A stretch of DNA of 64,000 nucleotides from Clostridia bacterium (GTDB lineage Bacteria > Bacillota > Clostridia > Oscillospirales > Acutalibacteraceae). The notes beneath the pieces were generated by a model. That model did no database searches, was not told the origin of the DNA, and saw only the letters and a list, made by a program, of their open reading frames with translations. The DNA is taken from NCBI GenBank assembly GCA_017437005.1, contig JAFSBZ010000017.1, positions 1 to 64,000 on the forward strand. The letters are read 5' to 3'. Shown piece after piece: positions 8,529 to 27,369 of the stretch (its first letter is position 1; each line of letters opens with the position of its first letter). The translations under genes and the position numbers were made by a program.

Positions 8529-9218
8529 ATGGATATTAAAAAGATTCTTTCATACGTAGACCATACCCTATTATCACAAAGCGCTACATGGGATGAAATT
8601 AAGGCGCTTTTAGACGACGGTATAAAATACGGCTGTGCATCCTGCTGTATTCCTGCTTCATACGTAAAGCAAGCAAAGCAGTATGTTGGTGACCGCTTGG
8701 CAGTTTGTACCGTTATCGGTTTTCCAAACGGATATTCAACAACCGCTACAAAATGCTTTGAAACCGAAGATGCCGTAAAAAACGGTGCTGATGAAATTGA
8801 TATGGTTATCAATATAGGCTGGCTTAAAGATACAAAATACGATCTTTTGCTTGAAGAAATAAAAGCAATTAAAGCTTCTTGCAAGGGCAAGATATTAAAA
8901 GTTATTATAGAAACCTGTCTTCTTACCGATGAAGAAAAAATTAAAATGTGTGAAATTGTATCGGCTTCAGGCGCTGACTTTATAAAAACCTCAACAGGTT
9001 TTTCCACAGCGGGTGCTACACGTCACGACGTGCAAGTTTTTGCCGACAATGTGGCAAGTCATTTGCAAATTAAGGCGGCAGGCGGCATATCTTCGCTTGA
9101 AGATGCCGAAGACTTCATAAATATTGGTGCTACACGACTTGGTACCAGCAGAATTGTAAAAATAGTAAAGGCTATGGAAAAAGGTGAAGAAAATGACAAA
9201 CAAGACTCCTCATATTGA
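8529..9218 (+). CDS. deoC: Deoxyribose-phosphate aldolase
   Basis: A 229-residue class I aldolase that splits 2-deoxyribose 5-phosphate into glyceraldehyde 3-phosphate and acetaldehyde. The Schiff-base Lys is Lys153 in [16 protein letters not shown] at the N-terminus and KAAGGI near the C-terminus are family marks. Its length is normal for bacterial DeoC. It is the first gene of a seven-gene nucleoside and nucleotide degradation operon, and its last 26 bases overlap the next gene. Confidence 0.95.
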
Positions 9219-9942
9219 TTTAAAAAACGACATTGGCTTTGGCAAAACTATTCTTATGCCGGGCGATCCGCTACGTGCTAAATACATTGCCGATAATTTT
9301 TTAGAGGACGCTGTGCTTGTAAATGGTGTTCGTGGTGTAAATGGCTACACAGGCTATTACAAGGGCGTAAAGGTATCTGTTATGGCAAGCGGTATGGGTA
9401 TGCCATCAATCGGTATTTACTCTTACGAGCTTTATAAATTCTTTGGCGTACAAAACATCATTCGTGTAGGCTCTGCTGGTGCTATTAATGATAACGTAAA
9501 GGTTCGTGATATAGTTATGGGCATGGGTGCTTGCACCAACTCTAACTTTATATCACAGTACGGAATGAACGGCACTATTGCTCCTATATGCAGTTTTGAA
9601 ATGTTGGATATAGCCAACAAGATTGCAAAATCAAAAAATCTTAACGCACATATTGGTAATCTTTATTCATCCGACACGTTCTACGATGATACCTTTCCCT
9701 CAAGCAATTGGGGTAAAATTGGTTGTCTTGCTGTAGAGATGGAAGCTGCGGCTCTTTATACAACAGCTATGCGCCTTGGTATGCGTGCAATGGCTATATG
9801 CACCATTTCGGATATACTTTATCCGCCGTTTACTGCACTTCCTGCTGACGACCGCGAAAAAACCTTCACACAAATGATGGAGCTTGCACTCGACTGCGCT
9901 GTAGAATATGAAAACCTTCCCTTATTAGAGGTTAAAGACTAA
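9193..9942 (+). CDS. deoD: Purine-nucleoside phosphorylase (DeoD type)
   Basis: A 249-residue hexameric-type PNP that converts purine (deoxy)nucleosides and phosphate to base and (deoxy)ribose 1-phosphate. Visible marks are [12 protein letters not shown], the GSAGAIN loop and [10 protein letters not shown], with the Asp of TISDI expected to act on the base. ATG at 9193 is used because AAGGTG lies 6 bases upstream. It overlaps deoC and stops one base before deoB, so expression is coupled. Confidence 0.95.
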
Positions 9943-9943
9943 T

Positions 9944-11110
9944 ATGAAGAGAGTTTTTTTAATTGTTCTTGATAGTTTTGGTATAGGCGCAATGCCCGAT
10001 AGCGAAAATTATGGTGACATTGGCGTTAATACCCTTGCTTCTATATCAAAATCAAAAAAATTTAAAATTAAAAATTTACAAAAACTTGGTCTTTTTAATA
10101 TTGACGGTGTTACTTGTGGCGAAAAGATTGAAAATCCGTCTGCCGCTATATGCCGCCTTGCAGAACTGTCTCGTGGCAAGGACACTACCATAGGTCATTG
10201 GGAAATAGCGGGTATTGTATCTGACAAACCGCTTCCTACCTATCCAAACGGTTTTCCGGCCGAAGTTTTGGATGAATTTTCTCGTCGCACAGGTAGAGCG
10301 GTTATATGCAATAAACCATATTCGGGCACCGAGGTTATAAAAGACTACGGTGACGAGCACGTAAAATCGGGCGCTTTAATAGTTTACACGTCGGCTGACA
10401 GCGTATTTCAAATAGCGGCTCACGAAGAAGTTGTTCCGCTTGAAGAGCTTTATAACTACTGTCGCATCGCGCGTGAAATTCTTGTAGGCGAGCACGGTGT
10501 GGGCCGTGTTATTGCCCGCCCATTTGTGGGCGAAAGCGGTAATTACAAGCGCACATCCAACCGTCACGATTTTTCACTACAACCTCCTCGCAAAACTATG
10601 CTTGACAGCATTAAAGAAGGTGGTCTTGACACAATATCTGTGGGCAAAATCTACGATATATTTGCAGGCGCAGGTATCAGCGAATATGTATATACCACAG
10701 GCAACTCTGACGGTATGACAAAAACTACTGAATATGCAAAGCGTGATTTTAACGGAATTTGTTTTACAAATCTTGTAGATTTTGATATGCTTTACGGTCA
10801 CCGCAATGATGTAGATGGATATGCCGCTGCTATAAGCGAGTTTGATAAGTGGCTTACAGAATTTTTACCACTGCTTCGCGATGAAGATATGCTTATTATT
10901 ACTGCCGATCACGGTTGTGACCCTGCATACACCGTAAGCACCGACCATTCACGTGAGTATGTGCCGCTTATAATTTACGGCAAAAATATTAAAGCCCAAA
11001 ATCTTGGTACACGCGAAGGCTTTTGTAATATTGGTAAAACCGTGTGCGACTATTTGTCGGTTGATGCTGATATTAAAGGCGAAAGCTTTATAAACGAAAT
11101 TTTAAATTAA
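9944..11110 (+). CDS. deoB: Phosphopentomutase
   Basis: A 388-residue alkaline-phosphatase-superfamily mutase that interconverts (deoxy)ribose 1-phosphate and 5-phosphate. The metal motif LDSFGIGAMPD is at residues 9-19, the phospho-acceptor Thr lies in KDTTIGHWE, and the C-terminal metal set TADHGCDP and STDHSREY is complete. It links the phosphorylases on both sides to DeoC. Confidence 0.96.
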   Translation: MKRVFLIVLDSFGIGAMPDSENYGDIGVNTLASISKSKKFKIKNLQKLGLFNIDGVTCGEKIENPSAAICRLAELSRGKDTTIGHWEIAGIVSDKPLPTYPNGFPAEVLDEFSRRTGRAVICNKPYSGTEVIKDYGDEHVKSGALIVYTSADSVFQIAAHEEVVPLEELYNYCRIAREILVGEHGVGRVIARPFVGESGNYKRTSNRHDFSLQPPRKTMLDSIKEGGLDTISVGKIYDIFAGAGISEYVYTTGNSDGMTKTTEYAKRDFNGICFTNLVDFDMLYGHRNDVDGYAAAISEFDKWLTEFLPLLRDEDMLIITADHGCDPAYTVSTDHSREYVPLIIYGKNIKAQNLGTREGFCNIGKTVCDYLSVDADIKGESFINEILN

Positions 11111-11121
11111 GAGGTGTAAAT

Positions 11122-11877
11122 ATGAAACAATATCATATCGCCCTTTCGGAAGAGCATAGCGCAAAGTACGCTATTATTCCCGGTGACCCCGGCAGAGTAG
11201 AAAAAATTGCCGCTTTTTTAGACGATGCTAAACAGGTAGGCAACAATCGCGAATACAACTCATATTTAGGTTATCTCGACGGTGAAAAGGTGCTTGTAGT
11301 ATCTACCGGTATTGGCGGACCTTCTTGCGCAATTTGTGTAGAAGAACTCGCTAAAATTGGTGTTGACACTTTTATACGCGTAGGCACCTGCGGTGGTATG
11401 CAACCCGAAGTAAAGCCAGGTGATGTTGTCATTTCTACAGGCGCTATACGTCAAGACGGTACAAGCCGCGAATATATGCCTATTGAATTCCCTGCCGTTG
11501 CTGATTTTCACGTTACAAGCGCTCTTTACAAAGCAGCCAATGCTCTTGGTTATGATAACCATATTGGTGTTGTTCAGGCAAAGGACAGCTTTTACGGTCA
11601 ACATTCACCCGAAAGTATGCCAACTTCACCCGAGCTTCTTGCTAAATGGGACGCCTGGAAACGCGGCGGTTGTTTGGCAAGCGAAATGGAAGGTGCAACC
11701 CTATTTATAGTAAGCGCCGCGCGCCGACTGCGTTCGGGTGGTGTGTTTCACTGTGTTTGGAATCAGGAGATATCAAAAAAAGCAATGCCTGAGGACCGCA
11801 AAGAAGACACCTCTTGCGCTATAAAAACCGCAATCGAAGCAATTCGCATTTTAATTAAACAAGATAAGGAAAAATAA
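11122..11877 (+). CDS. udp: Uridine phosphorylase
   Basis: A 251-residue nucleoside phosphorylase. It has AIIPGDPGRVEKI and GTCGGMQ of the NP-I family, and the QDGTSREY and SEMEGATLF segments typical of the uridine-specific branch. It yields uracil (or thymine) and pentose 1-phosphate, which feeds DeoB. GAGGTG lies 7 bases before the ATG, so it follows deoB with its own ribosome site. Confidence 0.92.
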   Translation: MKQYHIALSEEHSAKYAIIPGDPGRVEKIAAFLDDAKQVGNNREYNSYLGYLDGEKVLVVSTGIGGPSCAICVEELAKIGVDTFIRVGTCGGMQPEVKPGDVVISTGAIRQDGTSREYMPIEFPAVADFHVTSALYKAANALGYDNHIGVVQAKDSFYGQHSPESMPTSPELLAKWDAWKRGGCLASEMEGATLFIVSAARRLRSGGVFHCVWNQEISKKAMPEDRKEDTSCAIKTAIEAIRILIKQDKEK

Positions 11878-11880
11878 TTT

Positions 11881-12834
11881 ATGTTTGAAGCAGTACTTGA
11901 CTGTATAAAAAATTACGATACCATTATAATTCATAGACATTCTCGCCCAGATGGTGATGCTATGGGAAGTCAAATTGGTATGAAGCATCTTATCCTTGAA
12001 AACTTTGAGGACAAAACCGTTTATATGGTTGGCGACACCACAAATTATTTAAGCTTTATGCCCGATAGCGTTATGGATGAAATTGATGACAGCGTATATA
12101 GCGGTGCGTTGGCAATCCTTTTGGACTTTGCGTCCCCACATCTTGCAAGTGACGACCGATATACTAAAGCTGACAAAACCGTAAGGCTCGACCATCACAT
12201 ATATTGCGAAACCTTTACTGATGTAGAGGTTGTTGATAGCAGTTTTGAAAGCTGTTGTGGACTTGTAACCGCATTTGCAGTTGAATGTGGTCTTAAAATA
12301 AACGCTACTGCGGGCGAAGCGCTTTATACAGGTATGCTTACCGACTCAGGCCGTTTTCGTTACGATAGCACATCATCACGTACATTTAAATTAGCATCTG
12401 AGCTTATTGATACAGGCTTTGATACAAACGAGCTTTATCGCAATCTTTATTCAGATAATTTTGATAGTAAATTGCTAAAAGCAAAGTTTACTTTAAAAAT
12501 ACAGTTTACAAAAAACAATGTCGCATATATATATACCACAAAAGATGAACTGCAACAGCTTGGTAGTAGCGAATTTTCTATCTCTCGCGGTATGGTTGCT
12601 ACTATGGCAGATATTAAGGGTGTTGACATTTGGGTAAACTTTACCGAAAGTGATGAGGGCGTGTTGTGCGAACTCAGGTCAAGCCGTTTTAACATTAACC
12701 CAATAGCTGTAAAATACGGTGGCGGCGGTCACCAAAAAGCAAGTGGCGCGTGCGTTCCCGACCGCGAGACCGCGTTTTCTATGCTTAATGATTTGGACGC
12801 TATTCAAGGAGAATATAATGAACAAAGAAATTAA
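11881..12834 (+). CDS. DHH-family phosphoesterase, NrnA-like (first copy)
   Basis: A 317-residue DHH/DHHA1 protein. The metal motifs run in order: HRHSRPDGDAMGS, LLDFASP, RLDHH, and the DHHA1 block YGGGGHQKASG at the C-terminus. NrnA-type enzymes degrade short oligoribonucleotides and can dephosphorylate 3'-phosphoadenosine 5'-phosphate. Inside a nucleoside-degradation operon, the likely job is to turn nanoRNA or dinucleotides into mononucleotides. It is followed, with a 17-base overlap, by a diverged second copy. Confidence 0.85.
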   Translation: MFEAVLDCIKNYDTIIIHRHSRPDGDAMGSQIGMKHLILENFEDKTVYMVGDTTNYLSFMPDSVMDEIDDSVYSGALAILLDFASPHLASDDRYTKADKTVRLDHHIYCETFTDVEVVDSSFESCCGLVTAFAVECGLKINATAGEALYTGMLTDSGRFRYDSTSSRTFKLASELIDTGFDTNELYRNLYSDNFDSKLLKAKFTLKIQFTKNNVAYIYTTKDELQQLGSSEFSISRGMVATMADIKGVDIWVNFTESDEGVLCELRSSRFNINPIAVKYGGGGHQKASGACVPDRETAFSMLNDLDAIQGEYNEQRN

Positions 12835-13804
12835 ACAACAAATACTCCAAAAAATTAAAGAATATGACAAAATCTTTTTGTTTCGTCATATTCGTAATGA
12901 CGGTGACTGTGTAGGCGCTACAAAGGGTTTAAAGCGCATATTACAGCTCACCTTCCCCGAAAAACAAGTATTTCTTATTGATGATGACCGCGCCGAATAT
13001 CTTGAATTTTTAGGCCCCGATGACGAGCCTGTAGAAGACGCCGAATACACCGACGCTTTAGGCATAGTAATAGATACCGCAAGCGAAAAAAGAATATCTA
13101 ATAAAAAATACACCCTTTGTCGTGAGCTTATAAAAATTGATCATCATATTCCGCTTGAAAATTACGGCAATATTATGTGGGTTGAAGAAAACCGTTCTTC
13201 TGCTTGCGAAATGATTGCTGATTTTTATATTACATTTAGCGACGAATTAAAGATTGATAAAGCTGCCGCAACCTATATTTATACCGGTATGGTGACCGAT
13301 TCGGGCCGTTTTAAATACGAGGGTGTAAATGGTGAAACGCTACGTTGCGCGGCTGTATTATTAGATCAAGGCATAGACACCGAAACGCTTTATGCCCACC
13401 TTTATCTCGAGGCATTTGGCTACCTTAAATTCAAGGCAGAAATTTATCGCCGTATGCAAATTACCGAAAACGGTGTGGCATATATTTACGTTGACAAGGC
13501 TATGCAAGAAGAATTTAATCTAACACTCGAGCAAGCAAGCGCTTGTGTTGGTACACTTGATTCCATACGTGGTGCAATTGCCTGGATGGTATTTATTGAA
13601 AACGGAGACGATGAAGGCTCTATCCGTGTGCGTTTGCGTTCTCGGTTTGTAGCAATAAATCCCATTGCCGAAAAATATAACGGCGGCGGTCACGCTATGG
13701 CAAGCGGTGCTACGGTATATAGTTGGGACGAGGCCCAGCAGTTACTACGTGATGCCGATGCGCATATAAAAGAATACAAAGACACACACGAGGGTTGGCT
13801 ATGA
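12818..13804 (+). CDS. DHH-family phosphoesterase, NrnA-like (second copy)
   Basis: A 328-residue paralogue of the gene before it. The start is ATG 12818, with AAGGAG just upstream; longer in-frame extensions lie inside the neighbour. Motifs are FRHIRNDGDCVGA, VIDTAS, KIDHH and YNGGGHAMASG. The first motif has N-D-G-D where the first copy has P-D-G-D, and the linker regions differ, so the two copies may differ in substrate (for example oligonucleotide length, pApA or PAP). Its stop overlaps the surE start as ATGA. Confidence 0.85.
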   Translation: MNKEIKQQILQKIKEYDKIFLFRHIRNDGDCVGATKGLKRILQLTFPEKQVFLIDDDRAEYLEFLGPDDEPVEDAEYTDALGIVIDTASEKRISNKKYTLCRELIKIDHHIPLENYGNIMWVEENRSSACEMIADFYITFSDELKIDKAAATYIYTGMVTDSGRFKYEGVNGETLRCAAVLLDQGIDTETLYAHLYLEAFGYLKFKAEIYRRMQITENGVAYIYVDKAMQEEFNLTLEQASACVGTLDSIRGAIAWMVFIENGDDEGSIRVRLRSRFVAINPIAEKYNGGGHAMASGATVYSWDEAQQLLRDADAHIKEYKDTHEGWL

Positions 13805-14517
13805 GAATACTTATAACAAATGACGATAGCATTTCTGCTGAACAACTACTTCCTCTTGTAAAATATTGCCGTAAATTTGGTGAAGTTACAGTTGCTGTAC
13901 CCGAGGTTGAGCAAAGCGCTAAAAGTCACGGCATAGAGCTTCATAAGGCATTTAGGGTAGAAAAACGTTTTCTTGACGGCGATGTTGTAACCTATGTTGT
14001 TGACTCTACGCCTGCTGACTGTATGCGATATGTAATACTTGGGCTTGAGCAACGATTTGACCTTGTTATATCTGGAGTTAATCGCGGTCTTAATATGGGT
14101 AGCGATATACTGTATTCGGGTACGGTTTCTGCTGTACGCGAAGCAGTACTTCAGGGTATCCCTGCTATAGCGCTTTCTACCACACCCGAGAATTACCAAA
14201 ACGCTACTGCCCATCTTGACTTGGTTTTTGATTATATTAATGAACATAAGTTGCTTGAAATACATAACGCATATAATATAAATATACCACCAAACCCCAA
14301 GGGTATAAAAATAACCCGTCAGGGTGGAATGTATTTCTCTGACGGATTTATAAACGTAGAAGGCGATTTATATCGAGCCGACGGTAAATGTGTTTACAAA
14401 CCAAGTAATGACCTTACGCTTGATACCGATGCTACAATATCGGGATACATTTCTATTATGCCACTTAGTATGAATGTAACTGATATGGATGTATTTAAGT
14501 GTTTGACAAACAAATAA
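13801..14517 (+). CDS. surE: 5'/3'-nucleotidase SurE
   Basis: A 238-residue SurE-type phosphatase that releases nucleosides from nucleoside monophosphates. ATG 13801 follows GAGGG by 6 bases; an upstream TTG has no fitting site. The metal motif ITNDDS is at residues 4-9, SGVNRGLNMGSDILYSGT forms the active-site loop, and DSTPADC is conserved. It is the last gene of the operon and would supply the substrates for DeoD and Udp. Confidence 0.94.
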   Translation: MRILITNDDSISAEQLLPLVKYCRKFGEVTVAVPEVEQSAKSHGIELHKAFRVEKRFLDGDVVTYVVDSTPADCMRYVILGLEQRFDLVISGVNRGLNMGSDILYSGTVSAVREAVLQGIPAIALSTTPENYQNATAHLDLVFDYINEHKLLEIHNAYNINIPPNPKGIKITRQGGMYFSDGFINVEGDLYRADGKCVYKPSNDLTLDTDATISGYISIMPLSMNVTDMDVFKCLTNK

Positions 14518-14535
14518 GGATTATTTACACAACAA

Positions 14536-14561
14536 AAAAAGACTCCCGAAGGAGTCTTTTT
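14536..14561. terminator. Bidirectional terminator between surE and the surface-protein gene
   Basis: A 10-bp stem AAAAGACTCC / GGAGTCTTTT (14537-14546 with 14551-14560) with loop CGAA. A-runs and T-runs on both sides let it serve both converging transcripts. Confidence 0.88.
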
Positions 14562-14574
14562 TATTTGCTTTTAA

Positions 14575-16242
14575 TTAGCGCTTTTTGCTGGTGTAAAGAA
14601 CTACTGCGCCTGCTGCGATAGCCATTGCTACAACTGCGCCAATGCTGTCGCTTGTTGCAGGGCTGGTATTGTTAGAGTCAACAACTGTCAAACCATAGAA
14701 CTGGCAGAAGAAATTGTCAACGTATTCTGTTGATGAAGGACTTATTGTTGTGTACTGCTTGTCATTACGTGTACCAAAACCATATTCTTTTTCGCCAACT
14801 TTGGTAACATAAGTTTTTACTGTTGTATTGTATGAATAAACAGAAATTGCTGTGTCACCAAATACAGCATTAATATGATTTTTACCGTCTGTACCTACAG
14901 CATCAACTATATTCATATATTTCTTTGCACCATTTACCATTGCGTACATATAGTAACCGCCGGTTGTTTCTTCAAGATATACGTCAGCTGCTTTGTCCTT
15001 ATCGTCGGTAGTAGCCATATAGAAACCATCCATCTCACCTGTGAGGTAGAGAGTTTTCTTGAGGTTGCCCTGTACCATACCAAACTTGTATGCGGTATCT
15101 TTTACAGGGTTAGCAACAACGCCAAATCCCATTTGTGGTGCCTGCTCTTCTTTGTCCTCTTTATCTTCCTTCTCCTCTTCCTTATCGTCTGTAGAAGGAG
15201 GTGTTACGTCTTCACCTTCATCATCACCTGCAGGAGGTGTTACTTCTTCAACTGTTACAGCATAAAGCTGACAATAGAAACCATTGTACTCTGTCTTAAC
15301 AGGACCTACTGTTGTAAATGTCTTGTCATTACGGGTACCCATCCAATATGGAGCATCATTAACAATTGAAATCAAAGTTTTAGCTTCTGCATCAAAGGTA
15401 TAAACAGTAGTTGCGGCATCCTCAAACATACCGTTTACATAAGTACCGCTAACAACCATATTGATGTACTTTTTAGCGCCGTCAACCATTGCATAAAGGT
15501 TGTAGCCGCCTTCAACTTCTTCAAGATATACGTCAACTGCTGCAGCAACATCAGTTACAGTATTCATATAATATTTGTCCATTTCGCCATCGATATAATA
15601 AATATCAGTTTCGCTTACGTTAGACTGAATCATACCGAACTTATATGCTGTTTCAACAACAGGAGTTTCAACCAAAGTAATAACTGTTTCTGTTTCTTCC
15701 TCAACTGGTGGTGTTACTTCGCCACCTTCAGAGCCGCCTGCTAATACGATTGTGATAGAATCCCAATACATTGTATAGTTAAGGTCATGTTCAAAATGCA
15801 AGTATGTATAAGTTTCGGCATCTGGTGTAATAGTATACTCTTTTGTGCCGGCTGTTGTTGACAATTTTGTTGAATAAGTATATGAACCAACCTCATTACC
15901 AAATGAGAAAATTTCTGCATCAGGATTATCGTATGTCTTTTTGCCAGCGTTAAAAACCAACTTAATTTCCTTAATTGGTGAGCTGAATGCTGTAGTGTTC
16001 CAGAAAGAAGATGTTTTGCCATCCTTATCTCTTACCTGGATACCAGCATCATAGTTGCCGAGTTGTATCCACTCAAAGTCTACACCGTCAACAGTTGCTG
16101 TGCTAGCTGTATAACTTTGTGAAGGAAGTCCTAATGAGTCAACTGTTAAAACGATTTCTGTGCTGTCTGCTGCGGATGCGGTAAATACCATTGCTGATAA
16201 AAGCACGCATACGCAAACAAGAATTGAAAGAATTTTTTTCAT
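14575..16242 (-). CDS. Secreted repeat protein with a sortase-like C-terminal anchor
   Basis: A 555-residue protein with signal peptide (residues 1-24, cleavage near ASA). A beta-rich N-terminal domain (about 27-170) resembles a carbohydrate- or nucleic-acid-binding sandwich. Two related blocks of about 140 residues follow (about 205-340 and 380-525), each with YKFGM, a YLEE segment, GAKKY and TRNDK. An acidic Lys/Glu/Asp linker separates them. The C-terminus is SPATSDS, a hydrophobic stretch and KKR: the layout of a sortase signal, with PATSD where LPxTG is usual. It is transcribed in the same direction as the OB-fold and nuclease lipoprotein genes, and may be a wall-bound capture protein. 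Confidence 0.7.
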   Translation of the reverse strand: MKKILSILVCVCVLLSAMVFTASAADSTEIVLTVDSLGLPSQSYTASTATVDGVDFEWIQLGNYDAGIQVRDKDGKTSSFWNTTAFSSPIKEIKLVFNAGKKTYDNPDAEIFSFGNEVGSYTYSTKLSTTAGTKEYTITPDAETYTYLHFEHDLNYTMYWDSITIVLAGGSEGGEVTPPVEEETETVITLVETPVVETAYKFGMIQSNVSETDIYYIDGEMDKYYMNTVTDVAAAVDVYLEEVEGGYNLYAMVDGAKKYINMVVSGTYVNGMFEDAATTVYTFDAEAKTLISIVNDAPYWMGTRNDKTFTTVGPVKTEYNGFYCQLYAVTVEEVTPPAGDDEGEDVTPPSTDDKEEEKEDKEDKEEQAPQMGFGVVANPVKDTAYKFGMVQGNLKKTLYLTGEMDGFYMATTDDKDKAADVYLEETTGGYYMYAMVNGAKKYMNIVDAVGTDGKNHINAVFGDTAISVYSYNTTVKTYVTKVGEKEYGFGTRNDKQYTTISPSSTEYVDNFFCQFYGLTVVDSNNTSPATSDSIGAVVAMAIAAGAVVLYTSKKR

Positions 16243-16402
16243 TGCGATTTACTCCTTTTTGTTTATTTTTTTGAGGGGTTGTCCCCTTCATCGCATTGAT
16301 AATTATACCTTTTATTTTTAAATGTGTCAATAGTGAAAAGCAATTTTTACTACATATTGACAACTTTTTTAAGTCATTAACAACAATTAGTTATTATGTA
16401 AA

Positions 16403-16437
16403 CAAAAAGCAGCAACGACTTGCGTTACTGCTTTTTA
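16403..16437 (-). terminator. Terminator after the OB-fold lipoprotein gene
   Basis: A 14-bp stem with one mismatch (16423-16436 with 16404-16417) and a 5-base loop; on the minus strand the 3' arm ends in CTTTTTG. It ends the ABC-transporter/nuclease operon and leaves the wall-protein gene on its own transcript. Confidence 0.75.
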
Positions 16438-16452
16438 TTTCAAACTATTTGT

Positions 16453-19267: not shown

Positions 19268-19269
19268 AA

Positions 19270-20691
19270 TTAATATTCACACTCGTCAAGAGCTTCTTGG
19301 AATGCATCGTTGATAAGCTTATCAACTGCGGCATCATCTGCAGCATCGCCGCTCAAGCACTTAAGTAGCAATGCGCCTGCCTGCTCACGAGCCTTAGAAG
19401 AACCGTTAAATGCAGGTGAAACGAAGTAATCGTCACGGCCATCAATACCTACCTGTACGCACTTAGCAACAAGATATTCATATCCGTTACCCTTTTCAAG
19501 CCATGCCTTGTAGTTTTCGTTTTCTGTAACTGACTTAATAACAGGCATATAACCTGATGTCATTGAGAATTCAGCCTGGAATTCAATGTTTGTGCAAAGG
19601 AATTTTACAAACAACCAAGAAGCAAGTACCTGCTGATCGGTTGTGTTAGCGCCCTTTAAGATACAAAGGCTTGGACCCTGAGAGATAACTCTGCGATGCT
19701 CTTGATTGTACTGAGGAATTGTAGCAACACCTACTTCAAAAGCGTATGAACCGTCGGTAGTATCGTTGTTAGACATCTGGTAAGAAGCACCACCTGATGA
19801 GCCTACACACATATAGCAACGTGTATCGGTCTGCTCTACGAAAAGGTTAGATGTGTAAGAACCGTAAAGTTCCTGTGTGGTAAAGTAACCTTTTTTGTAC
19901 ATTTCACGAAGCTCTTTTACAAAAGCTTTGTTTTCGTCATTGTTAAAGAGGTATTGTCCGCCATTTTCAGCGCTTGTAAAGTCGGTTTCCATCTGCTCGC
20001 AAAGAGTGATGAACCAGTTGTCTTCAGCGTCATAGCCGAGCGGATAACATTCAGGATCAATTTCCTTTATCTTTGCGCATACATCCCAAAGCTCATCCCA
20101 AGAGGTAGGAACCTTAAGACCGTTTTCATCAAAGAATGTTTTGTCGTAGTAAAGAACCTCTGTAGATTTGTTAAGAGGCATGGTGTACATTTGATTGTCA
20201 CCATAAACAAGACCTTCGTTGTAATAGCTTTCAATAAAGTCATTCTTCTGAGCATCGGTAAGACCTATAATTTCTTCACCGTCACCAATTTTGATATCGC
20301 TGTTAATGAGGTTATCAAGAGTAACAACCGATTTTGCAATATTGTACATAGCAACGTGGTCAGGATAGCAATAAGCAATGTTTGGCTGTGTACCACCGGC
20401 GATTTCGGTGTTTATCTGACCGTTAATATCGCCCCAACCACCTGCTGACTGGTGTGTGATGTTGATGTTTGGATAAATTTTGTTAAACTCCTCAATGTAG
20501 GTGTTAAGAACTTCTTGAAGCTTTGCACCCATTGTGTGAGTAAAGGTAATGTCAACTGTTTCTTCTGTGTTGAAGCCCTCGGTTGGTACAACAAAAGCGT
20601 TGTTAGCATTGTTGCCGCCGCAGCCTGCAAGCGAAAACATACCAAGTGTCATAATAACAGTCAACATTATTGCTATAATCTTTTTAACCAT
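19270..20691 (-). CDS. ABC transporter solute-binding lipoprotein (CUT1 / UgpB-like)
   Basis: A 473-residue substrate-binding protein with lipobox LAGC (Cys about 24). It has the family 1 layout: EEFNKIYPNI near residue 65, NKSTEVLYYDKTFFDENGL (about 170-190), WDELWDVCAKIKE, and a GYMPV segment near the C-terminus. This class normally binds oligosaccharides or glycerol phosphate compounds. Because a nuclease gene is joined to it by a 2-base gap, the ligand here may be a nucleic-acid product; that is inference. Confidence 0.88.
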   Translation of the reverse strand: MVKKIIAIMLTVIMTLGMFSLAGCGGNNANNAFVVPTEGFNTEETVDITFTHTMGAKLQEVLNTYIEEFNKIYPNINITHQSAGGWGDINGQINTEIAGGTQPNIAYCYPDHVAMYNIAKSVVTLDNLINSDIKIGDGEEIIGLTDAQKNDFIESYYNEGLVYGDNQMYTMPLNKSTEVLYYDKTFFDENGLKVPTSWDELWDVCAKIKEIDPECYPLGYDAEDNWFITLCEQMETDFTSAENGGQYLFNNDENKAFVKELREMYKKGYFTTQELYGSYTSNLFVEQTDTRCYMCVGSSGGASYQMSNNDTTDGSYAFEVGVATIPQYNQEHRRVISQGPSLCILKGANTTDQQVLASWLFVKFLCTNIEFQAEFSMTSGYMPVIKSVTENENYKAWLEKGNGYEYLVAKCVQVGIDGRDDYFVSPAFNGSSKAREQAGALLLKCLSGDAADDAAVDKLINDAFQEALDECEY

Positions 20692-20743
20692 AGCGTTTTC
20701 AATCCTTTCTGTTTTTAAAATATAATAAACACTTTCGTGTTAA

Positions 20744-21631
20744 TTAACCCTTAATACCGCTTCGGCTAACACCCTGCATAATGTACTTACGCAAGAACAA
20801 GAATACAAGGAACAATGGTGCCGAAACAATTGCAACCGCTGCCATTTGTACAGGGTAATTTGCCTGACCTGTGGTATCGGTAAATGCGTTACGCAAGCCG
20901 TTGGTAATCATCTGGTGAGCCGGGTCGTTTGCAACAAGCTTTGGCCAGATATATGAGTTCCAAGCACCCATCATCTTAAGAATTGTAATAGATATAAGTG
21001 TTGGAAGTGCCAGCGGTATCATTACTTTCCAAAGGTATTTCAAATCACTTGTACCGTCAACCTTTGCAGCCAAGTAAAGCTCGTTTGGTATTTGCATAAA
21101 GTTTTGACGGAGAAGATAAATATAAAACACACTAACAAGGAACGGTACAATAAGCGCTGTAAAGGTGTGCATCCAGTTAAGCTGATTAACTGTGATGTAG
21201 TTTGTAATTGTGAACAATTCGCCCGGAATCATCATTGTAGCAAGCAATGCGCCAAACAATGTTTCCTTACCTTTAAATTCAAGACGAGCAAATGCAAATG
21301 CCGAAAGCACGGTAATTACAAGGCTTACTAATGTGGATACAACACCTACGTAGAGTGTATTCATAAACAAATCGCCTAAGTTTGCCGTCTTGAACGCTTC
21401 TGAGTAGTTGCCCCACATAATTTCACGAGGCCAGAAGGTTGGTATTGCCTGACGGTATTCAGGCAAGGTTTTAAGAGAAGAAATAATCATCCAATAAAAT
21501 GGGAACAGGATGATTAACGCCATTATAAGCAAGAAGGCGTAGGTACCGGTCTTGCCCAAAGCCTTAAATACATTTTGTATGAAAGTTCTTTGTTTTATAT
21601 CTCTTTCCTGCATAACAGTTGTTGTAGACAT
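20744..21631 (-). CDS. ABC transporter permease (UgpE/MalG-like)
   Basis: A 295-residue protein with six membrane segments. The cytoplasmic coupling loop EAA motif is visible as ELYLAAKVDGTSDLKYLWK (about 195-215). It ends with the CUT1 C-terminal pattern FLFLRKYIMQGVSRSGIKG. It pairs with the permease directly upstream (12-base gap) and with the binding protein downstream. Confidence 0.92.
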   Translation of the reverse strand: MSTTTVMQERDIKQRTFIQNVFKALGKTGTYAFLLIMALIILFPFYWMIISSLKTLPEYRQAIPTFWPREIMWGNYSEAFKTANLGDLFMNTLYVGVVSTLVSLVITVLSAFAFARLEFKGKETLFGALLATMMIPGELFTITNYITVNQLNWMHTFTALIVPFLVSVFYIYLLRQNFMQIPNELYLAAKVDGTSDLKYLWKVMIPLALPTLISITILKMMGAWNSYIWPKLVANDPAHQMITNGLRNAFTDTTGQANYPVQMAAVAIVSAPLFLVFLFLRKYIMQGVSRSGIKG

Positions 21632-21643
21632 ATCGGCACCCCC

Positions 21644-22582
21644 TTAATAATGAACGTGCTTCTTAATAACTCTATTGTTAAATATCGTTACAAGAAGAAT
21701 GATTACGAACAGTATCAAGGCACCCGCACTCGCAAGACCCTGACGGTCCTTTTCGAGAGCATCGTAAACGAAACCAACCATTGTGTTAAGACGGCCTGCG
21801 TCGTCAGGTGGTCCCATCTTTTCGCCAAAAATACCAATAATACTTGAGTATTCCTTAAATCCACCGATAAAGCCTGTAATAATTACGTAGGCAAGCATTG
21901 GTGAAAGTAGCGGAATAGTAATGCGTGTAAGCACACGTGCCTTTGGTGTGCCGTCAACCTTAGCAGCATCATAATACTGCTTGTTTATACTTTGTAAGCC
22001 GCCAAGAAGAATCAAAATCTTAAATGGCAATGCATTCCATACAATGTATACTATCATAACCGCTATGTTTGCGGTATAGGTAGAACCCTGGTTAATCCAG
22101 CTTATCGGCTGGCCGCCAAAGAATTCTATAACATTGTTTATAATACCCCATGTATCTGCAATACCCTCGGCTGGGTTGTAGCCTACTATGTTAAACATTG
22201 TAGCAAACACCATACCAATAGCGATAGAGTTGGTAACGTAGGGTAAAAAGAATATCGTCTGCAAGGTTTTTTGCAGCGGCTTAATCGAATTAAGAGCAAC
22301 CGCTATAAGCAAAGCAAGTGTGGTAGAAATTGGAACTGTGGCTACGCAAAGGATAGCAGTAGTCTTAAGACAGTCTAAAAATTTCTTGTACTCTATTACC
22401 TTGAGAAAGTTGTCAATACCAAATTGGAATGTCGCGCCGCCCATAGCAGCCATATTACCGTAGCCGTTTAAAAACGCCATACGTAAGGTATTAAAGATAG
22501 GCCATACGGTAAATACAAGCAACAACAAAATGGCAGGTGACAAATAAAGCCATGCTTTCCATTGTTGTTTATTCTCAACCAT
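21644..22582 (-). CDS. ABC transporter permease (UgpA/MalF-like)
   Basis: A 312-residue protein with six membrane segments and an EAA loop (QYYDAAKVDGTPKARVLTRI, about 215-235). FLPYVTNSIAIGMV marks the core TMD. Its start overlaps the ATPase gene end by 8 bases, so the two are translated together. Confidence 0.92.
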   Translation of the reverse strand: MVENKQQWKAWLYLSPAILLLLVFTVWPIFNTLRMAFLNGYGNMAAMGGATFQFGIDNFLKVIEYKKFLDCLKTTAILCVATVPISTTLALLIAVALNSIKPLQKTLQTIFFLPYVTNSIAIGMVFATMFNIVGYNPAEGIADTWGIINNVIEFFGGQPISWINQGSTYTANIAVMIVYIVWNALPFKILILLGGLQSINKQYYDAAKVDGTPKARVLTRITIPLLSPMLAYVIITGFIGGFKEYSSIIGIFGEKMGPPDDAGRLNTMVGFVYDALEKDRQGLASAGALILFVIILLVTIFNNRVIKKHVHY

Positions 22583-23687
22583 TGTTCTTCACCTCAAAAT
22601 AAATGCGCTTTTCGGTCTCTTTATTAAAGAGGAAGAACTTATGAGGCTTAATATTGTACTTAACGGTAGCGACGGTAGTATCAACCTTGATATCCGAACT
22701 AATAATAGCGCGAACAACAGGGTTAACAGAGTTTTTGTGGCTTGATACAACGCTTGCATCACGACCCATAACCTCTACGTTGTTAAGATTACAGGTAAAC
22801 ACACCGTTTGTTGCAGGCTCTAAAGCCTCAGGACGAATACCTATGTAAACATTTTGATCTTCAACACCGTCAACACTCATCACAGCTTCGTCGCCTATGT
22901 AAACCTTACCGTCTAATACTTTACCCTCAAGCACGTTGATAGGTGGAGTACCAAGGAAGGTTGCAACAAACAAATTCTTTGGATCATCATATACATCCTG
23001 TGGTTTGCCAATCTGCTGAACAACGCCAAGCTTCATTACAACGATAACGTCAGAGATAGACATAGCTTCTTCCTGGTCGTGAGTAACGAAGATGGTTGTA
23101 ATGCCTGTTTCTTTTTGAATACGGCGAATCTCTTCACGGGTCTGCAAACGAAGGCGTGCGTCAAGGTTTGAAAGAGGCTCGTCAAGAAGCAATACTCTTG
23201 GCATTTTTACAAGTGCACGAGCAATTGCAACACGCTGCTGCTGACCGCCCGAAAGCTCGCTGGGCTTGCGGTCCATAAGCTCGTCAATCTGCACAAGCTT
23301 TGCGGCGTTTATAGCGCGCTCAAGCATTTCTTCTTTAGAAAGCTTATCCTTTCCTTTAAGGTTTTGCAGCGGGAACAAAATGTTCTGCTGAACCGTCATA
23401 TGTGGATAAAGAGCATAGTTTTGGAAAACGAGTCCTATACCGCGGTTTTCGGTTGAAAGCTCGGTTACGTCATCGTCACCAAAATAGATTTTACCGCTTG
23501 ACGGCTTCTGAAGACCACTTATCATATATAAAGTGGTGCTCTTTCCGCAGCCGGAAGGTCCAAGCAGGCCTACGAGCTGACCGTCTGGAATTTCAAATGT
23601 GAAATCGTTAACGGCAACTACTTCTTTACCCGCCTTTTTATCACGGCTTGGGAAAATTTTTGTCAGGTTTTCTAATACAACTTTCAT
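22575..23687 (-). CDS. ABC transporter ATP-binding protein (MsmK/UgpC/MalK type)
   Basis: A 370-residue ATPase with Walker A GPSGCGKST (about 41-49), Q-loop FQNYALYPHMT, signature LSGGQQQR, Walker B LLLDEPLSNLD and the switch His in THDQEEAM. The C-terminal TOBE-type regulatory domain (about 240-370) is typical of CUT1 ATPases. Such ATPases often serve several importers, but here the gene lies in an operon with its own permeases and binding protein. Confidence 0.95.
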   Translation of the reverse strand: MKVVLENLTKIFPSRDKKAGKEVVAVNDFTFEIPDGQLVGLLGPSGCGKSTTLYMISGLQKPSSGKIYFGDDDVTELSTENRGIGLVFQNYALYPHMTVQQNILFPLQNLKGKDKLSKEEMLERAINAAKLVQIDELMDRKPSELSGGQQQRVAIARALVKMPRVLLLDEPLSNLDARLRLQTREEIRRIQKETGITTIFVTHDQEEAMSISDVIVVMKLGVVQQIGKPQDVYDDPKNLFVATFLGTPPINVLEGKVLDGKVYIGDEAVMSVDGVEDQNVYIGIRPEALEPATNGVFTCNLNNVEVMGRDASVVSSHKNSVNPVVRAIISSDIKVDTTVATVKYNIKPHKFFLFNKETEKRIYFEVKNNG

Positions 23688-23744
23688 ATTGATTCCCTTT
23701 CATTATGAAAAATAATATATTAAATATGTAATTTAATAAACAAT

Positions 23745-24509
23745 TTAAAAGGTTGGCTTTTGAGCCTCGGAGGCATGTAGCTTTTTGGTGTATTCAACAA
23801 GTGCCTCACGGCTGTCAAATATTCTTTGACTTGCCATATCAACAGCCACCGTGCCCGCCATTACATCGTGAAGTAACGAATTTGTACGAGTGGTTGCAAG
23901 ACATATAATATGTGCTGCTAAAATAACCAATAATACAACAACGCTTATAACACCTATAGAATTAAAATAAACCATCATAAGTATATAAATCGGTATCATA
24001 AGCTCAATAGCAAATTTGCCAAGCACCGCGCGAATAAACAGTTGCAGGTTACTTACCTTAATTGACTCTTTATGCATAAGTGCTATACCAAAAACCTTTT
24101 TGCCAAGTGTTTGACCGTTGCCAAAAAATAGCGGTACCACAAACTCAACCAACACAACGCCAATTAAAACACCCAAGGTAATTATAAGAAGTGATAGATT
24201 TATAAACATATTATACGCATACACGGCGTCCATATCGGCAGCAAAGGCTTCTTCGGCCTGTAGCGCTCTGTCGTTATATTCCTTTCTTTCCGACTCGGTT
24301 AAGGCATTGTATTCCTCAAGCGTTAAATTAACCTCGTACTCGGTAGAATATTTGGTGTACGCCTGCTGATATGTGTTAAGATGTTTGTCGGTGTTAAATG
24401 CTACCGAAAGCAACGCTATTAAGCCTACTGCGATAATACTTACTATTATACCGTCAAAGATAGCGGCGATTATTCTTTTAGAAATGCTTGCTTTTTGTAA
24501 ACTAACCAT
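23745..24509 (-). CDS. RDD-family membrane protein
   Basis: A 254-residue protein with hydrophobic segments at about 14-34, 105-127, 165-190 and 190-210. KRIIAAIFDGIIVSI at the start and GQTLGKKVFGIALMH in the middle are RDD-type blocks, with a hydrophilic loop between. RDD proteins have no single known function; some affect ion transport. It is encoded between the nucleotidase-kinase fusion (16-base gap) and the ABC ATPase, and may be an accessory of the import operon. Confidence 0.8.
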   Translation of the reverse strand: MVSLQKASISKRIIAAIFDGIIVSIIAVGLIALLSVAFNTDKHLNTYQQAYTKYSTEYEVNLTLEEYNALTESERKEYNDRALQAEEAFAADMDAVYAYNMFINLSLLIITLGVLIGVVLVEFVVPLFFGNGQTLGKKVFGIALMHKESIKVSNLQLFIRAVLGKFAIELMIPIYILMMVYFNSIGVISVVVLLVILAAHIICLATTRTNSLLHDVMAGTVAVDMASQRIFDSREALVEYTKKLHASEAQKPTF

Positions 24510-24525
24510 TCTGCTACCTCCGCCG

Positions 24526-25638
24526 TCAAATCTTTAACCTGTCGCGGATTTCTTTTACGGCCTGCTCGGCACTTTCAAACTTAACGGTGTAATCACATAC
24601 CTGTGCGTTACGGGTTTCGACAGATATTGACAAAAGACGATTAGCCTTATCCTCGGTGCTGCAATCTTTTTCAAGTATAGCAGTAATAAGCTCTTTTCGG
24701 TCACGCTTAACATATATTGTTATTACGTGCGGAAACAGTGTTTTAAGTGCCATAGCGCCACATATGTCCATAACGGTAAGAACATTTTTGCCCGAATTTA
24801 ATATTTTTTCTACATCGTCCTTACGGCAACCGTAAAAATGGCCTGCATATGTGGTTGATTCACACAACCTACCGTCATCTACCATATTTTGAAAATCGCG
24901 CTCGGTAACATACTTATACCATCCGTCAGGATCATTTTCAGAACCCGGATTTGTACTGTAGCTTATAAGCTTCTCAAAAACATCGGTACCATTCATCAAT
25001 TCACGGGCAATATCATTTTTGCCGCTACCCGAAGGGCCAACCAAAACCACAATGCTTGGACTCTCGAGCGATATCTGCTCGGGCGCTGTGCTATAACTAT
25101 TGGCAATAATCTCAACAAATTTTAAAAATTCATCGTAGTTGTTTACCGCCATAATACCTGTAGCCGCTTGATTCCAAGGCCTACGCATAAGTATGGGGTA
25201 TGCTGCGTTTGAATTGAGTATGTTATGCAGCCCGTCATCAAACAAAATATCTACGTCAATTTTATCCTTACGTGAACCGATAAGTATATGGTCGCGTGGT
25301 ATTTCAGGGAAAACCTCTAAAATACGTTGATAACGTTGGCTCATATACTCGGGCCAAACGGCAGTAGAAATAAAAATCTCTGTAATTTGAGAAAGTTTTC
25401 TAACAAATTCCTGCGCGCCCTTTATTGGTGGCTGCGATGAAATAAAATCAGGATTGTCCATAAACTCAAATATAACGTCCGCGCGAGTGCCCGTACGACC
25501 CCAACGATCCACCTCATGTATTGTAAGCGGCGGGTCAAATTTATATTTTTCATTCGCCATACGAATAGCGTATGGTACACATTCAAGCAGAAGATCATCT
25601 ACATCAAGCGCTGTAGAAAGCCGAAAACTTCTGTTCAT
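24526..25638 (-). CDS. Fusion of 5'(3')-deoxyribonucleotidase (NT5C-like) and guanylate-kinase-like domain
   Basis: A 370-residue two-domain protein. The N-terminal part (about 1-180) is a HAD phosphatase with ALDVDDLL (Asp12/Asp14), ISTAVWP as motif II and DVDILFDDGLHNI as the acidic motif, as in NT5C deoxyribonucleotidases. The C-terminal part (about 195-370) follows guanylate kinase: P-loop GPSGSGKN at 201-208, HFYGCRKDDVEKIL and VLTVMDICGA. The Arg-rich STRxPRxGE loop that binds the GMP phosphate reads STNPGSENDPDG, and the residue after the P-loop Lys is Asn, so this half may be altered or only a binding domain. It is the first gene of the import operon, behind a promoter with a palindrome. 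Confidence 0.78.
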   Translation of the reverse strand: MNRSFRLSTALDVDDLLLECVPYAIRMANEKYKFDPPLTIHEVDRWGRTGTRADVIFEFMDNPDFISSQPPIKGAQEFVRKLSQITEIFISTAVWPEYMSQRYQRILEVFPEIPRDHILIGSRKDKIDVDILFDDGLHNILNSNAAYPILMRRPWNQAATGIMAVNNYDEFLKFVEIIANSYSTAPEQISLESPSIVVLVGPSGSGKNDIARELMNGTDVFEKLISYSTNPGSENDPDGWYKYVTERDFQNMVDDGRLCESTTYAGHFYGCRKDDVEKILNSGKNVLTVMDICGAMALKTLFPHVITIYVKRDRKELITAILEKDCSTEDKANRLLSISVETRNAQVCDYTVKFESAEQAVKEIRDRLKI

Positions 25639-25674
25639 ATATCAATCTCTTCCAATCTTAAAGTTTGCACTTTC

Positions 25675-25698
25675 ATACAATATACATTCATATTGTAT
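25675..25698. promoter_or_regulatory. Palindromic operator candidate at the import-operon promoter
   Basis: Nine-base perfect arms ATACAATAT and ATATTGTAT around the 6-base centre ACATTC. It overlaps the -10 and the expected transcription start of the minus-strand operon, the usual place for a repressor. No regulator gene lies beside it. Confidence 0.65.
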
Positions 25699-25725
25699 AA
25701 TATCATATTCGCTATTTATTAGCAA
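25697..25725 (-). promoter_or_regulatory. Promoter of the import operon
   Basis: On the minus strand TTGCTA, a 17-base spacer and TATTAT, about 60 bases before the fusion gene. Confidence 0.65.
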
Positions 25726-25773
25726 GTAATTTTTTGTGATTTTGCAAAAAACTATCGATTTTTGACAAAAGTC

Positions 25774-25802
25774 TTGTTATTATGCGACTTAGGCAGTATA
25801 AT
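25774..25802 (+). promoter_or_regulatory. Promoter of the secreted 5'-nucleotidase gene
   Basis: TTGTTA, a 17-base spacer and TATAAT, 47 bases before the gene start, back to back with the import-operon promoter. Confidence 0.65.
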
Positions 25803-25848
25803 ATCTTTGATTTTATTTTTATTATACAGCTTAACAAGGTGATTATAA

Positions 25849-27369
25849 TTGAAAAATTTTACTAAAAGATGTCTTGCTATTGTTTTAATTGTATGTGTGT
25901 TAATTTGTACAGCAGGTTGTAAGGGTGATATTTGCTCGCCACACAAAGATGATAACAGCAACGGCGTTTGTGACAAATGTCATCAGTCTGTGATGGAATA
26001 TGTTGACTTTTATAATATAAACGATTTGCACGGAAAATTAGATGATGGTCAAAATCATATCGGTGTGGATGAGCTTACCACATTTCTTAAAGCCGCCAGA
26101 CAAAGCGATCAAAACGCTGTATTTTTATCAAGCGGTGATATGTGGCAAGGTCAAGCTGAATCAAATATGACCAAGGGTTTTATTATGACCGATTGGATGA
26201 ACGAGCTTGACTTTACTGCTATGACTCTTGGCAACCACGAATTTGACTGGGGCGAAGAATACGTTAAGCAAAACAGTGATTTGGCAGAATTTCCGTTTTT
26301 GGCAATTAACATATACGATCGCGCCACAAATAAAATTGTTGATTACTGTAAACCGTCGGTTATGATAGACGCAGGTGCCGCACAAATTGGTATTATAGGC
26401 GCTATTGGAGATTGCTATTCCTCTATCGCGGTGGACAAATGCGACGAGGTTTATTTTAAAGTAGGTAACGATCTTACTGCTCTTGTTTTACACGAAGCTA
26501 ACAGTCTACGGCAAAAAGGCGCCGATTTTATCGTGTACATAATACACGACGGGCACGGACGTTCAAGTTCGGGCACTGCGCAACAAATAAGCTCTTCGCA
26601 AATATCCTCTTACTATGATACCGCGCTTTCGGACGGATATGTTGACCTTGTATTTGAAGGTCATACACACCAAGGTTATCTATTAAAAGATGAATACGGT
26701 GTTTACCATATGCAAAATCGCGGCGATAACAAGGGTGGTATATCACATGCCGAGATTTCAATAAACACCGTCACCGGCAAAACAAACGTATCGGTTGCGG
26801 AATTAATTTCTACAAGCCATTATCAAAGCCTTGATGACGACCCGATTGTTGACCAACTTTTAGATAAATATTCCGACCAAATTGAACCTGCTAATGAAAT
26901 TTTAGGCACTAACAGTACTCGCCGTAACAGTGGTGAATTACAACAACTTATAGCGCAGCTTTATTTTGAGACAGGCTTTAAAGAATGGGGCGACGAATAC
27001 GATATAGTTCTCGGTGGTGGCTTTATGTCTATCAGAAGTCCGTATTATCTTCCATACGGCGATGTCACCTATGCCGATTTGCAATCACTCTTCCCATTTG
27101 ATAACCAGCTTACTCTTTGTTCGGTTAAAGGAAGCGAATTAAAATCAAAGTTCATAAGCACAAGTAATGACCGCTATTATATTCACTACGGCGATTATGG
27201 AAACAGTATTAAAGAAAATATTGACCCAACCAAAACCTATTACATAATTGTAGATACCTATACCGCCGACTATAAATACAACAATCTGAAGATAGTTAAA
27301 CGATATGACGAAAATATATTTGCCCGTGATTTACTGGCAAATTTCATAAAAAGCGGCGGTTTATCGTAA
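25849..27369 (+). CDS. Secreted 5'-nucleotidase lipoprotein (UshA-like)
   Basis: A 506-residue lipoprotein starting at TTG after AAGGTGATTATAA; lipobox CTAGC-type with Cys24. The calcineurin-like metallophosphatase domain (about 45-300) shows the full metal set: NDLHGKL, SSGDMWQG, GNHEFDWG and FEGHTHQG. The C-terminal 5'-nucleotidase domain (about 330-506) binds the nucleoside, with LPYGDVTYADLQSLFPFDN as its block. The family hydrolyses extracellular nucleotides to nucleosides and phosphate. It is divergent from the ABC-importer operon whose SNase would provide its substrates. A Cys/His-containing stretch (about 24-48) may bind a metal. Confidence 0.9.
   Translation: MKNFTKRCLAIVLIVCVLICTAGCKGDICSPHKDDNSNGVCDKCHQSVMEYVDFYNINDLHGKLDDGQNHIGVDELTTFLKAARQSDQNAVFLSSGDMWQGQAESNMTKGFIMTDWMNELDFTAMTLGNHEFDWGEEYVKQNSDLAEFPFLAINIYDRATNKIVDYCKPSVMIDAGAAQIGIIGAIGDCYSSIAVDKCDEVYFKVGNDLTALVLHEANSLRQKGADFIVYIIHDGHGRSSSGTAQQISSSQISSYYDTALSDGYVDLVFEGHTHQGYLLKDEYGVYHMQNRGDNKGGISHAEISINTVTGKTNVSVAELISTSHYQSLDDDPIVDQLLDKYSDQIEPANEILGTNSTRRNSGELQQLIAQLYFETGFKEWGDEYDIVLGGGFMSIRSPYYLPYGDVTYADLQSLFPFDNQLTLCSVKGSELKSKFISTSNDRYYIHYGDYGNSIKENIDPTKTYYIIVDTYTADYKYNNLKIVKRYDENIFARDLLANFIKSGGLS

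Follow-up and report, generated by a model that had tools for sequence, protein, structure and literature searches.

A predicted, co-inherited nucleic-acid feeding module in gut Clostridia combines a secreted nuclease, a CUT1-type importer, an NrnA-like pair and SurE

Operons that join a nuclease to an ATP-binding cassette (ABC) transporter are known from mycoplasmas (PMC12115388). In Mycoplasma agalactiae, a staphylococcal-nuclease-type (SNase) lipoprotein, a sugar-type ABC transporter and its binding lipoprotein are co-transcribed (MAG_5030-MAG_5070), import of nucleic-acid precursors has been proposed, and the operon is conserved in the M. hominis group (PMC3585158). P48 of mycoplasmas is a nucleoside binder of the PnrA type, which is another class of binding protein (PMC12892991). 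DNA-degradation loci of Ca. Izemoplasmatales have been likened to polysaccharide-utilisation loci, the usual view being that nucleic acids are degraded to nucleosides or bases outside the cell before uptake (PMC8289736), and a Xianfuyuplasma locus combines a thermonuclease with ABC transporters, its genes being up-regulated with DNA (PMC8397711). Here we describe a block of genes at positions 8529..27369 of a 64,000-nucleotide stretch (the window; contig JAFSBZ010000017.1 of a Clostridia bacterium, assembly GCA_017437005.1), in which we predict, from sequence comparisons, a real and co-inherited module for feeding on nucleic acids.

The general idea is already published in these accounts of SNase and sugar-type ABC operons and of DNA-degradation loci. 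The first-pass annotation of the window knew of no described system with this layout; the precedents in M. agalactiae (PMC3585158) and the Izemoplasmatales (PMC8289736, PMC8397711) correct it on that point. Compared by description, the Mycoplasma operon shares with the block the grouping of SNase lipoprotein, binding lipoprotein, ATPase and two permeases, whereas the gene order differs: binding protein-SNase-ATPase-permeases there, RDD-ATPase-permease-permease-binding protein-SNase-OB here. Its description, in the sections available, names no NrnA pair, SurE, RDD protein or OB lipoprotein. Clustered extracellular nucleases, phosphohydrolases and ABC transporters are common to the block and the Izemoplasmatales and Xianfuyuplasma loci. 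The latter differ in having EddB (1,049 amino acids, with a lamin-tail domain) and phosphate transporters, nucleoside or base transport is assumed for them, and the same sections of their descriptions name no NrnA-like pair or SurE. Pfam scans of 30 window proteins gave no match to a phosphate ABC transporter, the Izemoplasmatales trait. What is new is that an NrnA-like pair and SurE are inherited along with such a set, and that the set is spread through gut Clostridia, with copies labelled Spirochaetes. Among open PMC papers, searched by titles and abstract starts, we found no description of a feeding oligonucleotide importer or of an SNase/NrnA/SurE locus.

The first question is whether these genes stand together merely by chance. 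An alignment of the SNase protein was scanned against one genome per species (84,980 species), and the best 80 of 196 loci, with 50-85% identity, were kept; the scan was built on two peptide patterns and is biased to near relatives. These loci are mostly labelled Clostridia, with three Spirochaetes and one Mollicutes, but bins are possibly mixed, and the labels Spirochaetes, Mollicutes and Agathobacter are to be treated with caution. Their source titles, where given, name mostly ruminant gut and some horse, and the nearest relatives of the window bacterium are animal-gut dwellers. In counts based on tblastn, each over the loci whose contig extends to the gene in question, the SNase gene is accompanied by that of the binding protein in 74/74 loci, of the UgpE-type permease in 71/71, of the UgpA-type permease in 69/69, of the ATPase in 66/66 and of the RDD protein in 64/64. 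The order RDD-ATPase-permease-permease-binding protein-SNase, all on the same strand, is kept at every locus reached (a count at the level of open reading frames is too low by eight ATPase genes and one gene for the binding protein, all of which tblastn places in the locus).

Co-inheritance was also followed within the genus, in 61 genomes sampled from a larger group, with thresholds of E<1e-160 for the SNase, E<1e-60 for the binding protein and E<1e-20 for surE. The SNase is present in nine genomes and the binding protein in the same nine, always adjoining it; the pair of DHH-DHHA1 genes (hereafter the DHH pair, dhh1 and dhh2) and surE each occur in exactly these nine (Fisher 5.8e-11, kinship not corrected for). 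No SNase, binding protein, DHH pair or surE was found at these thresholds in the 52 other genomes, three of which have a distant DHH protein (E 7e-21 to 8e-21). Some of the 80 locus genomes are apparently genus genomes as well, since G179/G128 and G182/G123 share DHH coordinates. By these co-inheritance counts, chance does not account for the grouping. The joint conservation of SNase and importer, by which the first-pass annotation had proposed to judge its reading, held in every locus reached and in all nine SNase genomes of the genus, and the block does look like the nucleic-acid scavenging locus that it proposed.

The DHH genes follow the SNase even where they lie apart from it. A dhh2 gene or a close form is found in 76 of the 80 SNase-locus genomes, 38 times in the locus and, at E<1e-40, elsewhere in the genome in 38 of the remaining 42; L018, L027, L057 and L064 have no DHH match. 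Flanks of 9 kb are present on either side at 30 loci; of these, 21 hold the trio of DHH pair and surE and nine do not, and all nine genomes of the latter kind carry a DHH gene elsewhere (in one, L077, surE stands at the edge and a DHH gene probably lies just past it); this, together with the genus counts, led us to reject the view that the DHH pair and surE are housekeeping genes that only happen to adjoin the locus. DHH and SNase genes lie on separate contigs in four of the nine genus genomes; in G123, G128 and G145 no more than about 4 kb of the SNase contig remain, so that the split may be due to broken assembly, and in G135 the contig runs on for 8 kb with no DHH gene. In a family sample (n=120; E<1e-40) the DHH pair was found in three genomes, namely the window genome, G100 and G010, two of which have the SNase. 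G100 holds a divergent copy of the cluster (30-67% identity), and a contig of G010 (69% complete) holds wall-surE-dhh2-dhh1-udp-deoB-deoD. In a class sample (n=391; SNase at E<1e-20, tandem pair at E<1e-90) the pair occurred in 5/5 SNase genomes and in 2/386 others; these two carry it on contigs (L119, L120) with surE and an OB gene, at or near the contig end, and no SNase was seen there. One genome, G315, weighs against the association: remote forms of the SNase and of the binding protein adjoin each other there, yet it has no DHH match at E<1e-30.

The strict core therefore consists of the SNase, the importer, the DHH pair and SurE, as their co-occurrence in the genus stands against 27/61 genomes for deoD and 17/80 loci for the secreted 5'-nucleotidase (NT5); the deo genes, this nucleotidase and the wall protein lie outside it. 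The first-pass annotation had treated the whole 19 kb as a single grouping, and that claim does not stand. We consider it distinctly unlikely that all of 8529-27369 is one purpose-built feeding locus with the deo genes and the 5'-nucleotidase as integral parts, even though close relatives (e.g. L008, L011, L019) keep the order from NT5 to deoD and deoD is present in 9/9 SNase genomes of the genus. The NT5 and wall genes vary between loci, and the four deo/udp genes are near in only 5 to 9 of the 80 loci (flanks were at most 10 kb, so that NT5 and deo/udp are undercounted). In the SNase genomes L110, L112 and L113 the deo genes stand upstream of the importer operon, and deoD also occurs in 18 of the 52 genus genomes without SNase. 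The 19 kb as one conserved unit was rejected on these counts.

If the core is a feeding module, in what form do the products of the nuclease enter the cell? We favour, with a probability of about 0.6, the import of short oligonucleotides with finishing inside the cell. Outside the cell, short fragments would be cut from DNA or RNA by the secreted SNase lipoprotein. Micrococcal nuclease yields 3'-phosphorylated mono- to oligonucleotides, and the same products are to be expected of the window enzyme. OB lipoproteins may hold nucleic acid at the cell surface, and the binding protein of the CUT1-type importer would take dimers to short oligomers. In the cytosol, an NrnA-like enzyme would then convert NpNp to N and pNp and, by an activity of the pAp-phosphatase type, pNp to pN; SurE and a fusion of NT5C-type deoxynucleotidase and guanylate-kinase-like domain (NT5C-GMK) would handle mononucleotides. 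In the window genome, deoD, udp, deoB and deoC would degrade the nucleosides further, to bases, glyceraldehyde 3-phosphate and acetaldehyde. Import of unfinished oligonucleotides fits because, within the genus, it is SurE and NrnA-like proteins of cytosolic type that are strictly linked to the SNase and the importer. For the same reason, the order first proposed, in which phosphate is stripped before import, is probably wrong.

The binding protein is central to this question. With its SBP_bac_8 domain, it stands side by side with two BPD_transp_1 permeases and a MalK/UgpC-type ATPase, for which UgpC/GlcV models rank top, and the importer thus belongs to the CUT1 class. By sequence profile, its best match in the PDB is a dinucleotide-binding protein (7c0x/7c0f, E 7.5e-23), with 83.7 bits against this dinucleotide-binding ABC protein and 61.8 against UgpB. 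By structure (AF2 model, pLDDT 87), the dinucleotide-binding protein and UgpB tie, and the ligand-site residues are partly kept, one being lost. The former, a dinucleotide-binding protein of an ABC transporter reportedly described by Chandravanshi et al. in 2021 (FEBS J; PDB 7c0f-7c1b), is the closest solved relative by sequence and has a CUT1-type fold, although identity is only about 20% and the lost site residue sets the window protein apart. We predict from these matches that the window protein binds di- or oligonucleotides. In a genome of another family (L121:5201-10504; G517), an importer of this class is followed directly by an NrnA-like DHH gene, and no SNase lies within 20 kb.

Such an importer could also be an ordinary one for sugars or glycerol phosphate, with the nuclease serving biofilm, competition or defence against traps. 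The CUT1 class itself, the tie with the UgpB fold and the nearest NCBIfam names point that way, all of the latter lying below cut-off (UgpB 63.9/411, UgpA 67.8/335, UgpE 104.5/297 and UgpC 350.2/432 bits). However, the strict linkage to SNase, DHH pair and SurE across several lineages, together with the lack of any glycosidase or sugar enzyme among the kept core genes, makes this highly improbable.

The main rival is import of nucleosides or nucleotides. In its first form, the importer would carry nucleosides or bases made outside by the SNase and surface nucleotidases, and the DHH pair and SurE would serve only to turn over nanoRNA or signal nucleotides of the cell itself. For M. bovis, a UgpE-like permease has been reported to take part in nucleoside uptake (PMC12838404), the transport supposed by Wasmund et al. 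for the Izemoplasmatales is that of nucleosides or bases (PMC8289736), and the window encodes a secreted 5'-nucleotidase. That nucleotidase, however, lies close by in no more than 17 of the 80 loci, and by sequence the binding protein matches a dinucleotide binder best. Genes with a housekeeping role would not track the SNase, and none of the 52 SNase-less genus genomes has a close form of the DHH pair or SurE. We regard this reading as unlikely.

In its second form, the importer would take mononucleotides (3'- or 5'-nucleoside monophosphates), SurE and the NT5C-GMK fusion would finish them, and the DHH pair would only remove 3'-phosphates (pNp). SurE is annotated as a 5'/3'-nucleotidase, and B. 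subtilis YtqI (NrnA) is said, by the title of a paper cited in PMC8492067, to have pAp-phosphatase activity as well. UgpB-type proteins bind phosphate esters, and a UgpB structure with glycerophosphocholine is among the fold matches of the binding protein. On the other hand, a pair with the diesterase fold, kept nearly throughout (dhh2 in 76/80), seems beyond what a phosphatase would need, and we judge this form very unlikely.

NrnA (nanoRNase/pAp phosphatase) is the best solved relative of both proteins of the DHH pair, near full length and with DHH and DHHA1 domains present. They differ from it in forming a tandem pair followed by SurE and in falling below the NCBIfam NrnA equivalog cut-off of 350 (dhh2 242.7 bits, dhh1 231.7 bits). 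The start of dhh2 is most likely 12815 rather than 12719, to judge from the alignment. SurE lies above the TIGR00087 cut-off. The NT5C-GMK fusion is near in 23/80 loci and adjoins dhh1 in the divergent loci L108, L120, L124 and L125.

Another question is whether the SNase of the window can be active. The lipoprotein has a signal peptide with a lipobox, an SNase domain and a C-terminal half that looks OB-like by eye, and it is the only SNase match in the window genome (1.97 Mb in 49 contigs, 85% complete; the window lies on contig C14). Its residues 55-198 align to staphylococcal nuclease, and D68, R87, E95 and R138 are invariant in 30 relatives; we take them to be the equivalents of D21, R35, E43 and R87 of that enzyme, with the roles presumed for these residues there. 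With PF00565 above its cut-off and these equivalents kept, the protein belongs to the staphylococcal-nuclease family. The equivalent of the metal ligand Asp40 is Asn (N92) in the window; Asn stands there in 83 of 90 SNase copies and Asp in seven, six of which are the deep copies L108, L115, L117, L118, L145 and L148. An altered metal or rate is possible. We rejected the idea that the exchange has left a dead enzyme, as Asn is so widespread and the other inspected residues are kept.

In Bacillus subtilis, the surface protein YhcR unites the functions of OB, SNase and 5'-nucleotidase; here these functions are split over separate proteins, with an importer. A relative of the OB lipoprotein sits downstream of the SNase in 62/70 loci, and neither this lipoprotein nor the RDD protein was detected by tblastn in the deep branches L108, L118 and L145; both are steady companions in near relatives only. 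Giant proteins (1270-2201 amino acids) were also seen downstream of the SNase, with aBig_2 domains in L052, L076 and L108 and with OB matches below the Pfam cut-off in L044 and L047. Of seven large downstream proteins in relatives, four have aBig_2 above cut-off, two have OB below cut-off only (one of them also with a Pirin_C_2 match) and one is without match; no nuclease domain was seen in the seven.

The feeding module is probably mobile. The nine SNases of the genus form two clades that are 46-51% identical, and in the tree of binding proteins the second clade branches separately, next to a long-branched copy that comes from another family; the set thus arrived at least twice or was often lost. 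Deep branches that retain the set are G100 and G573. Searches of plasmids and phages gave distant matches only. The binding protein of the window (19270-20691) is 96% identical to that of L011 and the SNase only 76%, which suggests a mosaic locus.

More tentatively, and at somewhat less than even odds, the set may be a dedicated oligonucleotide-eating system, a counterpart of oligosaccharide uptake, that has been passed on whole among Oscillospiraceae, Lachnospiraceae, Spirochaetota and Mycoplasmatota living in animal guts, and nuclease-less sister importers with secreted tandem-OB lipoproteins may use the fragments made by others. In these sister importers (L126, L131-L133, L136, L137, L140, L142-L144), a lipoprotein without Pfam match comes directly after the binding protein. 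Its predicted fold is a tandem OB, and profile comparison with the C-terminal half of the SNase gave no significant match.

If the binding protein takes di- or oligonucleotides, the usual rule of degradation before uptake would be broken and a nutritional oligonucleotide importer could be named. Short nucleic acids would then have a natural entry route into gut bacteria, extra, non-housekeeping NrnA-like enzymes would have a reason to exist, and a class of 'sugar' importers with unassigned substrates would become testable.

Table 1 Genes and signals in and around the block at 8529..27369 of the window
Feature	Position	Strand	Supporting match
Promoter-like site ahead of deoC	8464..8492	+	11/12, consensus match only
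deoC, deoxyribose-phosphate aldolase (accessory, lineage-specific neighbour)	8529..9218	+	TIGR00126 237.2 bits, cut-off 117.3
deoD, purine-nucleoside phosphorylase (accessory)	9184..9942	+	TIGR00107 262.4 bits, cut-off 232.25
deoB, phosphopentomutase (accessory)	9944..11110	+	TIGR01696 484.8 bits, cut-off 341.2
udp, uridine phosphorylase (accessory)	11122..11877	+	TIGR01718 305.9 bits, cut-off 280.3
DHH-DHHA1 protein 1 (dhh1), NrnA-like	11881..12834	+	NrnA 5j21 best PDB match, E 1.1e-56
DHH-DHHA1 protein 2 (dhh2), NrnA-like	12815..13804	+	NrnA 5j21, E 4.3e-69
SurE, predicted 5'/3'-nucleotidase	13795..14517	+	TIGR00087 147.7 bits, cut-off 135.1
Two-way terminator-like hairpin between surE and wall gene	14535..14562	both	z -6.2 on either strand
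Surface repeat protein, irregular sortase-type C-terminus	14575..16242	-	C-terminus SPATSD-TM-KKR
Promoter-like site ahead of wall gene	16302..16330	-	12/12, consensus match only
Hairpin after OB lipoprotein gene, probable importer operon end	16395..16445	-	z -6.3
OB-fold lipoprotein, three similar repeats by eye	16453..17895	-	PF01336 38.4 bits, cut-off 27
SNase lipoprotein, 449 amino acids	17918..19267	-	PF00565 44.3 bits, cut-off 21
Importer binding lipoprotein, SBP_bac_8	19270..20691	-	PF13416 119.7 bits
Importer permease, UgpE/MalG type	20744..21631	-	PF00528 (BPD_transp_1)
Importer permease, UgpA/MalF type	21644..22582	-	PF00528 (BPD_transp_1)
Importer ATPase, UgpC/MalK type	22575..23687	-	PF00005; PF17912 MalK OB 25 bits, just below cut-off 27
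RDD-family membrane protein	23745..24509	-	PF06271 42.4 bits
NT5C-type deoxynucleotidase and guanylate-kinase-like fusion	24526..25638	-	PF06941 + PF00625
Secreted 5'-nucleotidase-type lipoprotein (accessory)	25849..27369	+	PF00149 (Metallophos) + PF02872 (5_nucleotid_C)

The block comprises four probable transcription units (Table 1). The plus-strand unit holds deoC, deoD, deoB, udp, the two DHH-DHHA1 genes and surE; the minus-strand unit holds the genes for the NT5C-GMK fusion, RDD protein, UgpC-type ATPase, two permeases, binding lipoprotein, SNase lipoprotein and OB lipoprotein; its genes overlap or stand 2-57 bases apart, and a hairpin closes it. The gene for the secreted 5'-nucleotidase points away from the head of the importer operon. 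All genes listed in the first-pass annotation are open and fall in the named families, and deoC, deoD, deoB, udp and surE are each above an NCBIfam cut-off. The Pfam matches of the plus-strand unit are DeoC, PNP_UDP_1 (twice), Metalloenzyme, DHH-DHHA1 (twice) and SurE. The list omitted the RDD membrane protein.

The wall gene is probably a unit of its own, as the hairpin at 16395-16445 and a promoter-like site at 16330-16302 separate it from the operon. Its product, earlier called a wall-anchored repeat protein, does end in a sortase-type C-terminus (SPATSD, a hydrophobic stretch and KKR), and it has no match in Pfam or NCBIfam. Regular sorting motifs (SPDTGD, SPVTGD) end a downstream protein in 8/80 loci, which makes the window copy of the motif irregular. 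A shared operator was sought in two intergenic regions, and a single 10-mer was found, overlapping a promoter box.

The flanks of the block (GH3, an MBOAT/DHHW pair, RhaA and a glucuronyl-esterase-like protein) look unrelated to it. At 4816-7676 of the window, a DHHW protein stands beside an MBOAT acyltransferase, perhaps an O-acetylation pair like AlgX/AlgI, and the product of 33324-34412 matches a family of glucuronyl esterases whose name refers to fungi (PF22244, 69.4 bits). Two T-box leaders lie farther off, at 49830-50070 on the minus strand and at 62374-62597 on the plus strand.

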